Source: Thermosynechococcaceae cyanobacterium MS004 (GTDB taxonomy: Bacteria; Cyanobacteriota; Cyanobacteriia; Thermosynechococcales; Thermosynechococcaceae). From it: a stretch of 64,000 nt of DNA. Shown here in pieces: positions 29,888 through 60,720 of the stretch (its first letter is position 1; each line of letters opens with the position of its first letter). The stretch is from positions 1 through 64,000 of the forward strand of contig JAKRSB010000115.1 in assembly GCA_022402525.1 (NCBI GenBank). Reading direction: 5' to 3'. The notes beneath the pieces are model-generated. The model did not search any database, had not been told where the DNA came from, and saw only the letters and a program-made list of their open reading frames with translations. A program made the translations under genes and the position numbers.

Positions 29888-29959
29888 AGCCCCTTAGCAG
29901 ACTTGAACTGCTGACTTCCTCATTACGAGTGAGGCGCTCTACCACTGAGCTAAAGGGGC
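29888..29959 (-). tRNA. trnT-CGU: tRNA-Thr (anticodon CGU)
   Basis: Full cloverleaf on the reverse strand: acceptor gcccctt/aaggggc, D arm gctc-agtggta-gagc, anticodon stem cctca/tgagg with loop ctcgtaa (anticodon CGT), and T arm agcag-ttcaagt-ctgct. The 3' CCA is not encoded. The CGU anticodon reads ACG, threonine. Confidence 0.95.
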
Positions 29960-58494: not shown

Positions 58495-59514
58495 TCAAAC
58501 CGTTGCTTCTTCCAAAATAATGCGCGTGGATTGCAGACTTTGAATGAGACGACTGGCCTCCCAGTCTTCCAACAGGAGTGCCTGAATTAAGTTCGCGGCG
58601 CGTTTCCCGGCCGGGTCTTCTCGCAGCCCAAGGTAAAAGCTGGCGCTGTGGTGAGAGTCTGTGCCAATAATTTGGCGGAGATTGTCGGCCTGCTCTAGAA
58701 AATTGCGGGTTTGGGTTTGCAGATTATTCCAGAGGTTGATGTTGCGCAGGTTGCTGAAGTTTTCGGCCACGAGATCTTGACGGTGCTGGAGCAAGATGGC
58801 TCGGTGTCGCACGGGCAAGGGTAAATCCTCAAACATAATGGCGGGGCCATAGCCAATGAGCCGCAGCGGCTGTACCCACTTGGGATAGTTTCCAAAAAAT
58901 GCCTGCACAATATGCAGCGCCAGAGCCGCAATAATGAGGCCCTGGCTGTGGGCCACCACAAAGACCTCTGCCCCTGCGCGAATGGCGTTTACCAACTCGT
59001 AGGCCAACCTGAGGGTTGGTCGAGGGGCACCCGTCGGATAGGCTCCGTAGAGGGAAGTTTCTAGATCTTCCCAGGCAAGGCTCGGAATAGTTTGGAGGCG
59101 TCGCAATAGGTCAAGGCTAAAGGGCAGTTTCTCCGCAGACTGGCAAAACCCTAAAATATCGGCCTCTGGCGGAATGGGCTGAATCGATGAGTTACAGAGC
59201 GATCGCAAGAGGTCGGCATAGCCCTGAAGTCGCTTGCGACTAGCGCTGGTGCTCTGTTCTGGCCAAAGACGATATAGCTCAGCCTTGCCCAGTAAGCTTT
59301 CGGTTAAGTCTGCCTGTAGCCCTTGGGTACTGTTGTGGATGCCAACCACATCAAAGGGCTGCTCCAGGGTTAACCACACCAGTGCTTCTATGTCACGAAG
59401 CTGGGTCGCAACATCACTAGCCACTCCGTTGATGTGCAGGATGCGCTTCTTTTTATTCATAAGGGGGGCTGGACCGTAGCTCACCAGTCGCCCATCTTGT
59501 TCCTGTTCGGTCAT
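58495..59514 (-). CDS. alpha/beta-hydrolase-like hypothetical protein
   Basis: 339-aa protein I cannot place in a named family. Seen: the beta strand RILHINGVASD, then FDVVGIHNST, and a nucleophile-elbow-like VFVVAHSQGLIIAALALHIV near residue 190 (pattern H-S-Q-G), which suggests a serine hydrolase or lipase-like fold. A downstream LRLIGYGPAIMFEDLPLP resembles a following core strand. No signal peptide or clear membrane helix. The acid and His of a triad are not obvious; HRQDLVAENF or SHHSAS may hold them. Single gene, convergent with prfA. Confidence 0.6.
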   Translation of the reverse strand: MTEQEQDGRLVSYGPAPLMNKKKRILHINGVASDVATQLRDIEALVWLTLEQPFDVVGIHNSTQGLQADLTESLLGKAELYRLWPEQSTSASRKRLQGYADLLRSLCNSSIQPIPPEADILGFCQSAEKLPFSLDLLRRLQTIPSLAWEDLETSLYGAYPTGAPRPTLRLAYELVNAIRAGAEVFVVAHSQGLIIAALALHIVQAFFGNYPKWVQPLRLIGYGPAIMFEDLPLPVRHRAILLQHRQDLVAENFSNLRNINLWNNLQTQTRNFLEQADNLRQIIGTDSHHSASFYLGLREDPAGKRAANLIQALLLEDWEASRLIQSLQSTRIILEEATV

Positions 59515-59724
59515 GGGTTTCTAGATTAAGTCGGAGATGATTAAGTCGGGATGATCATAGGGAGGGGATGGAGCCGGGGAAATCTTCAGTGGTGGCTTGA
59601 AGGCAGCGCAGATTGGGCATCGCAGCCGATTTGCAGTGTAATGAGTGTTCTGCTCTGTGCGCAAACTCACAACAATGGAGTGATATCCATCACGAGGGAA
59701 CAAGGCTGCGCTTGTCATACTGTG

Positions 59725-59798
59725 AGTGACTCAAGAACTGAGTTATCAATGGGGAACACACAACTCGCCGGCAAACCTTTGGGTTTGTCGGTTTTTTT
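59725..59798 (+). ncRNA. structured small RNA candidate, copy 1 (Yfr2-like)
   Basis: About 74 nt: 5' hairpin gactca-agaac-tgagtt (59728-59744), an unpaired conserved stretch atcaatggggaacacacaac, then hairpin ccggcaaacc/gggtttgtcgg (59768-59791) and a run of seven T. A -10-like catact is at 59716-59721. A second copy lies about 255 bp downstream with compensating changes in both stems. The layout (short hairpin, conserved loop with GGAACA, terminator) recalls the cyanobacterial Yfr2/Cyano-1 family; that name is from memory and not verified. Confidence 0.65.
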
Positions 59799-59799
59799 A

Positions 59800-59841
59800 T
59801 GGGTTAGCACGTATGGGTTAGCACGTATGGGTTAGTACGCT
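59800..59841. repeat. 14-bp tandem repeat after small RNA copy 1
   Basis: tgggttagcacgta at 59800-59813 and 59814-59827 and a diverged third unit to 59841. Confidence 0.9.
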
Positions 59842-59980
59842 TAGGACTGGGCTGGGCTTTTGGCCTTTAACGTCTTTAGTCTAGCGATTTCGGGTTAGCA
59901 GGCCTTGAGTCTTAGGAAAGATCACAGTGGCTTGGTGATATTAGTCATCTGGGTGCCTAGCCAATCTTGGGATAGTACAG

Positions 59981-60055
59981 AGGACTCAGATAGCTGGGTC
60001 ATCAATGGGGAACACACAACTCGCCGACAGACCTTCGGGTTTGTCGGTTTTTTTT
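59981..60055 (+). ncRNA. structured small RNA candidate, copy 2 (Yfr2-like)
   Basis: About 75 nt: 5' hairpin gactcag-atag-ctgggtc (59983-60000), the same unpaired stretch atcaatggggaacacacaac, terminator hairpin ccgacagacc/ggtttgtcgg (60024-60047) and eight T. Compared with copy 1 the stems differ by changes that keep pairing (A-U versus G-U), while the loop region is identical. A -10-like tagtac sits at 59973-59978. No ORF fits. Confidence 0.68.
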
Positions 60056-60123
60056 GCTGCCTTTAATTTGCTGCTTTTAAATAGATACTTTGGGCTAGAT
60101 GTTTTGGATTGTTCCATGCTTCC

Positions 60124-60720
60124 CTAGCGCATGATGCCCATTGTGTGTTTCCAGGACAGCTCCTTACGCAGGATCTCTAAAGCTCTGCGATCGCTCCCTT
60201 CAAATAGTGGACTGACCTGAGCCAACACCTGCTCCACCAACTCCGAGGCAAACATTCCCGAAGACCGCATGAGGTGCGAATAATAGCAAAACTGACTCTG
60301 CTGGTCTAGGTTGCGATGGAAGGCATAAATCTCCGCCGCTGTCATGCAGGACACAGGCGTATTAGCAGGCACCACGACCGCCGGAATGCCCTGGCAGCCG
60401 TAGGTTACATCCTTGAGCTGCTCCAGGGTTCCAATTAAGACCGTCCACAATAGCGTGCGCGTCTCACGGATTAGATCTGGGGTAAAAAAAGGGTCAGGCT
60501 CACTGACGAGGCGCGGGCCAGAACTCAGAAAAGCGGGGTTGAAAAGCTGAGAGTTATAGATTAGCCCTACTGCCCAGTGGCGTTCCGCTGTTTCTAGTTT
60601 CACAAACGACCCAAACCCGTAGTCATCGGGTAAGGGTGGACTGGAAACCTCCATGCTGTCATCTACCTGCACAATGTAGTCACAGTGCGAATTTGACTTT
60701 ACAACTCGTCCTAATTTCAT
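60124..60720 (-). CDS. HAS-barrel-like protein
   Basis: 198-aa protein. Seen: an N-terminal barrel-like region MKLGRVVKSNSHCDYIVQVD, then LPDDYGFGSFVKLE and AVGLIYNSQLFNP, which resembles the HAS barrel at the start of HerA-type ATPases, and a helical C-terminal half (about 80-198) with MTAAEIYAFHRNLDQQ and FASELVEQVLAQVSPLFEG. There is no Walker motif, so it is not itself a HerA ATPase. Function unknown; it may pair with a partner ATPase elsewhere. Genes around it do not help. Confidence 0.55.
   Translation of the reverse strand: MKLGRVVKSNSHCDYIVQVDDSMEVSSPPLPDDYGFGSFVKLETAERHWAVGLIYNSQLFNPAFLSSGPRLVSEPDPFFTPDLIRETRTLLWTVLIGTLEQLKDVTYGCQGIPAVVVPANTPVSCMTAAEIYAFHRNLDQQSQFCYYSHLMRSSGMFASELVEQVLAQVSPLFEGSDRRALEILRKELSWKHTMGIMR

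Follow-up and report, generated by a model that had tools for sequence, protein, structure and literature searches.

In E. coli and its relatives, the small RNA (sRNA) CyaR is activated by cAMP-CRP and passes the cAMP signal on to mRNAs; the RNA described here is likened to it by its mode of working only, a sequence relation not being expected. Among the cyanobacterial sRNAs, Yfr1 (PMC2190773, PMC4734099) is similar in layout (a short stem, an invariant unpaired core and a terminator) and in its very wide spread among cyanobacteria. The Yfr1 core is CACUCCUCACACC (PMC4734099), whereas the core found here is AYRGGGAACACAC, and an unpaired CACUCCUCACACC between two hairpins is absent from both units of the present locus. 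Yfr2/Cyano-1 (RF01701; PMC2662882), another cyanobacterial RNA, is likewise multicopy, with several homologues per strain, and displays a conserved single-stranded motif; the units described here, in contrast, fail its covariance model. NsrR1 of Nostoc (PMC6166021) is a cyanobacterial sRNA directly controlled by a regulator of the CRP/FNR family, as is predicted here. It is ~110 nt long and repressed by NtcA through GTR-N8-TAC over the -10 (PMC6166021), whereas the present RNA is ~72 nt long, its CRP boxes occupy activator positions, and the NtcA motif is not enriched. The cyanobacterial CRP regulons, as laid out in the methods of PMC2633013, were predicted by scanning the upstream regions of predicted protein transcription units; they share with the present promoters the consensus TGTGA-N6-TCACA and a TAN3T -10 about 22 bp downstream, but the sRNA family is not mentioned in the parts consulted.

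The window, i.e., the whole stretch of 64,000 nucleotides analysed from Thermosynechococcaceae cyanobacterium MS004 (contig JAKRSB010000115.1), harbors at 59716-60055 what is quite likely a tandem duplication of a stand-alone, intergenic sRNA gene of ~72 nt, whose family is spread through Cyanobacteriia (Table 1). The first-pass annotation had described two tandem units with an identical unpaired stretch, and this description holds: the 4.93-Mb genome as a whole contains the 20-mer ATCAATGGGGAACACACAAC at just two places, on the same strand and 256 bp apart, within two units of ~72 nt each. Both fold as a stem, an unpaired stretch and a terminator, with z = -3.8 and -4.5 against shuffles, none of which reached equal energy. 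The terminator scan returned 59767-59792 for copy 1 and 60023-60048 for copy 2, each with 11 pairs and a T-run, and 26 identical bases running from the loop into the terminator are common to the two copies. The stem changes between them, e.g., G-U to A-U and A-U to G-U in the terminator or G-U to G-C and U-A to U-G in the 5' stem, are all one-sided and proceed via G-U wobble, without a single double compensatory change; hence, the term “covarying”, which had been applied to the units, is too strong for the pair itself. Both units are intergenic, possess their own promoter elements and terminator, and do not appear to act as leaders, as expected of an intrinsically terminated sRNA. Short repeats occur nearby, i.e., three head-to-tail copies of TATGGGTTAGCACG at 59798-59839, immediately 3' of the copy 1 terminator, and two copies of TTTGCTGCCTTTAA at 60053-60080, after that of copy 2.

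Table 1. Features of the tandem sRNA locus and its neighbour genes (positions in the window).
Feature	Position	Strand	Basis or remark
Divergent neighbour gene, 339 aa, no Pfam match	58495..59514	-	syntenic within the window's family
Distal CRP box of copy 1, TGTGCGCAAACTCACA	59656..59671 (centre 59663.5)	.	1 mismatch of 10; family-wide box at the same offset
Proximal CRP box of copy 1, AGTGATATCCATCACG	59679..59694 (centre 59686.5)	.	2 mismatches; -41.5 from predicted start 59728
-10 box of copy 1, CATACT, without -35 hexamer	59716..59721	+	no -35/-10 pair in the sigma-70 scan
5' hairpin of copy 1, GTGACTCA/TGAGTTAT	59726..59746	+	fold
sRNA copy 1	59728..59798	+	start predicted from alignment and the spacing to the -10, end set by the T-run; E 4.7e-14 to family model
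Conserved unpaired stretch of copy 1, putative site of target pairing	59745..59764	+	exact repeat, fold, alignment
Intrinsic terminator of copy 1	59767..59798	+	fold, terminator scan
Decayed distal CRP site of copy 2, CTTAGGAAAGATCACA	59911..59926	.	4 mismatches, none in the right half
Proximal CRP box of copy 2, GGTGATATTAGTCATC	59934..59949 (centre 59941.5)	.	3 mismatches; -41.5 from predicted start 59983
-10 box of copy 2, GATAGT	59971..59976	+	
sRNA copy 2	59983..60055	+	start inferred; E 8.0e-14 to family model
5' hairpin of copy 2, GACTCAG/CTGGGTC	59983-60000	+	fold
Conserved unpaired stretch of copy 2, same sequence as in copy 1	60001..60020	+	exact repeat, fold
Intrinsic terminator of copy 2	60023..60055	+	fold, terminator scan
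Convergent gene downstream, 198 aa, without Pfam match	60124..60720	-	adjoins the sRNA in many families

A BLAST search with one unit revealed matches in members of the window's own family, many of them with genomes of 2.1-2.8 Mb. The covariance model, built from 23 sequences of relatives, returned matches in 188 of the 390 Cyanobacteriia genomes searched at the cut-off of E<=0.01, most of them falling between 1e-8 and 1e-18; conserved copies in related genomes, whose absence would have spoken against the first-pass proposal, are clearly there. Among 386 genomes sampled from the phylum, 48 had a match, all of them members of the class Cyanobacteriia, and a degenerate pattern search of another collection yielded 92 contig stretches with organism names. 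The named carriers comprise Thermosynechococcus, Acaryochloris, Leptolyngbya, Stenomitos, Phormidesmis, Myxacorys, Coleofasciculus and others. Judging from the printed match counts of the covariance model, 33 of the 188 genomes carry at least two copies, and some feature close tandem arrays of 2-5 copies, e.g., Stenomitos frigidus (3), Pantanalinema (5) and Pegethrix (3).

The constraint acting on these sequences is of the RNA type. GGGAACA together with a few flanking bases is invariant across the 106 aligned sequences, and the hairpin loop is conserved in most families. In the same alignment, 87.4% of the cells in the proposed helices are paired vs. 22-41% for slid partners, and two-sided pair changes affect 10 of the 15 pairs vs. 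4.9 expected after shuffling, so at the level of the family (though not of the two copies) the notion of covariation stands. Nine of these ten pairs are located in the terminator and one in the 5' stem; the sequence of the latter is conserved and its covariation is scarce, which counts against the explanation favored below. Overall, conservation across the class lends good support to the earlier view of the units as small RNAs with a conserved unpaired loop, a candidate for pairing with mRNA.

The -10-like hexamer that had been noted before each first stem is indeed present in both copies, and CRP boxes at fixed promoter positions, absent from the first-pass annotation, are newly described here. 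Within 115 nt upstream, 151 of 156 non-redundant copies bear a sequence with at most two mismatches to TGTGA-N6-TCACA, as compared with 10/156 in shuffled sequences, 4 in a second shuffle and 4/152 in the stretch downstream. When 152 promoters were aligned on their -10 boxes, mean mismatches dropped sharply at only two offsets from the box, -51.5 (4.14) and -29.5 (4.55), and were about 6.3-8.9 elsewhere. If transcription is taken to start 12 nt downstream of the first -10 base, these offsets correspond to about -63.5 and -41.5 from the predicted start; the two positions are 22 bp, i.e., two helical turns, apart and, reckoned from the predicted starts, are class I- and class II-like activator positions. 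The sigma-70 scan of the window region found no -35/-10 pair. Thus, TGTGA-N6-TCACA at a fixed activating position (3 mismatches in copy 2) is combined with a -10 and no -35, as is characteristic of CRP-activated promoters. Copy 1 possesses both boxes, and copy 2 only one weaker box with 3 mismatches, which counts against the favored explanation. The NtcA motif showed no enrichment in the promoters of the family, and control by NtcA was rejected on this ground. The promoter region of the divergent gene could share the CRP boxes; its 339-aa product (58495-59514, -) features an AHSQG motif.

The genome encodes one protein, the CRP orthologue, that unites the cNMP-contact motif GE...PRST with the recognition helix RETVTR, both of which are known from E. 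coli CRP, along with three class III adenylate/guanylate-cyclase-type domains. With the CRP orthologue called at E <= 1e-60 over 390 genomes, the sRNA was found together with it in 176 genomes and without it in 12, nine of the latter in assemblies of <90% completeness. Among good assemblies, those with both, the sRNA only, CRP only and neither numbered 147, 3, 94 and 92, respectively (Fisher p 9e-26, a value inflated by relatedness). The safer count by family was 19, 0, 17 and 7 (p 0.012), the seven CRP-less families being taken from the rows listed and families with weak or no matches being counted as lacking CRP. A 99% complete genome of the window's own family (G003) has neither the sRNA nor CRP. 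The frequent presence of CRP without the sRNA, as in 94 good genomes, counts against the favored explanation; it implies that the dependence is one-way, i.e., CRP does not need the sRNA. The nearly complete genome G288 (family f32, locus L195) carries the sRNA and the boxes but matches CRP only weakly (E about 1e-35), which likewise counts against the favored explanation; there, either CRP has diverged or another regulator took over.

Taken together, the gene, its structure and conservation, the boxes and the co-occurrence with CRP, all of which were computed, make it likely that the locus encodes a trans-acting sRNA activated by cAMP-CRP, with the exposed GGGAACACAC pairing with mRNAs; the tandem sRNA is probably used by the cell to pass the cAMP signal on to mRNAs. 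According to this proposal, a rise in cAMP would allow the cAMP-bound CRP dimer to bind at -41.5 (class II) and, where the box is present, at -63.5 (class I), so that RNA polymerase would be recruited to a promoter having a -10 but no -35; such activation of the sRNA promoter is strongly suggested by the position of the boxes. The RNA's own terminator would then release a short transcript with the 5' hairpin and the terminator folded and AUCAAYRGGGAACACAC exposed. Anatomy and conservation of the core suggest that it may be antisense to several mRNAs, and the outcome would presumably be repression (activation seems less likely), so the CRP signal would be converted to post-transcriptional control. 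Since the tandem copies have a common core and differ in their stems and promoter strength, they probably raise the dose or widen the response, leaving the specificity as it is.

Several readings of the units deny them the status of a new independent gene. The proposal, made in the first-pass annotation, that they resemble Yfr2/Cyano-1 drew on real similarities, for they are cyanobacterial, short and tandem, and expose a conserved single-stranded purine-rich motif; the covariance-model check did not bear it out. In the Rfam search of 609 bases, Cyano-1 matched the locus neither at the gathering score of 41 bits nor at E<=10, and the matches in the region were chance ones only. Three Cyano-1 matches, two of them above the gathering score, reside on other contigs of the same genome (C150:110263-110336, C146:48406-48491 and C13:66643-66713), none being found on the contig of the window (C20). 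They carry another motif, GAAACACGG, inside a hairpin, and are the real Yfr2-type candidates of this genome. Membership of the pair in Yfr2/Cyano-1 is therefore rejected as scarcely credible. Any other Rfam family was rejected as well, for the window units and also for 13 homologous loci, where no Rfam sRNA family matched at the sRNA position; the sole Rfam match at the gathering threshold within the window is a tRNA gene (29888-29959, -). The strong terminators that end both units would also suit transcribed leaders or attenuators of downstream genes, or 3'-UTR remnants. Yet the gene downstream runs toward the units, both in the window and at nearly all homologous loci where it was found, on which ground the leader or attenuator function was rejected, and both units are preceded by a -10 and CRP boxes of their own, placed at a fixed distance. 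In addition, the retention of both neighbours, the convergent 198-aa gene and the divergent one, favors orthology and disfavors a leader function; this possibility is very improbable. The 3' end of the 198-aa gene reads GGAAACACACAATGGG, which resembles the sRNA core when read in the same sense, a likeness that may be fortuitous. Finally, an ATG within the core of the window copies could start a small peptide (ATGGGGAACACACAACTCGCC...), but CAATGGGG occurs in only 9 of the 106 aligned homologues, with CAACAGGG, TAATAGGG or TCTACAGGG in most of them, and a start codon followed by 10 sense codons is missing from 83 of the 106, so that peptide coding was rejected and deserves next to no credence.

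Other readings accept the sRNA and alter its regulator or its mode of action. The boxes might serve another CRP/FNR-family regulator or function as repressor sites, in which case the sRNA would not be cAMP-induced: further Crp-type HTH proteins are also encoded in the genome, and occupancy of the boxes here is predicted only. Against this, NtcA and two other such proteins possess TRVTVTR recognition helices, unlike RETVTR, the promoters show no NtcA enrichment, -41.5 and -63.5 without a -35 are the positions of an activator, and the presence of the sRNA tracks the CRP orthologue; we regard this option as decidedly unlikely. Alternatively, a CRP-controlled RNA could bind and titrate a protein instead of pairing with mRNA. 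One short invariant core (GGGAACA) and the hairpin loop conserved in most families would fit a protein-binding site, as would the lack of signal in the target scan, where the best energies across 2.4 Mb (93%) of one Thermosynechococcus-type genome were within the range of 12 shuffled loops; this outcome also counts against the favored explanation. A hit upstream of a cpcG-like linker gene was dropped, as it lies in the apparent coding end of the preceding gene. Still, titrating RNAs usually bear repeated hairpin sites, and base-pairing sRNAs are usually laid out as here, with a single exposed segment of 15-20 nt flanked by a hairpin and a terminator; hence, titration appears unlikely, and a CRP-activated sRNA pairing with mRNAs is preferred.

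The family is absent from Rfam 15, the literature text search for the core sequence gave no relevant paper, and no open-access paper naming the family was found, although supplementary sRNA tables (e.g., for Nostoc PCC 7120, PMC4734099) may list a homologue under a TSS number. With respect to Rfam 15 and the open-access papers searched, an annotation gap is thus filled, and laboratory strains such as Thermosynechococcus or Leptolyngbya make the sRNA testable. In the broadest interpretation, whose chances we consider even, it would represent an ancient riboregulator that had so far gone without a name and that serves as the RNA arm of cAMP-CRP signalling in roughly half of Cyanobacteriia; its tandem CRP boxes, spaced by 22 bp, would be conserved along with the seed, and tandem amplification would have occurred repeatedly. 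The known or predicted cAMP-CRP targets differ between cyanobacterial lineages, and the regulons were concluded to be lineage-specific (PMC2633013). If the proposal is true, this widespread sRNA, with its conserved CRP promoter, would constitute a target common to the lineages, and it would explain how CRP could repress genes lacking a CRP box.
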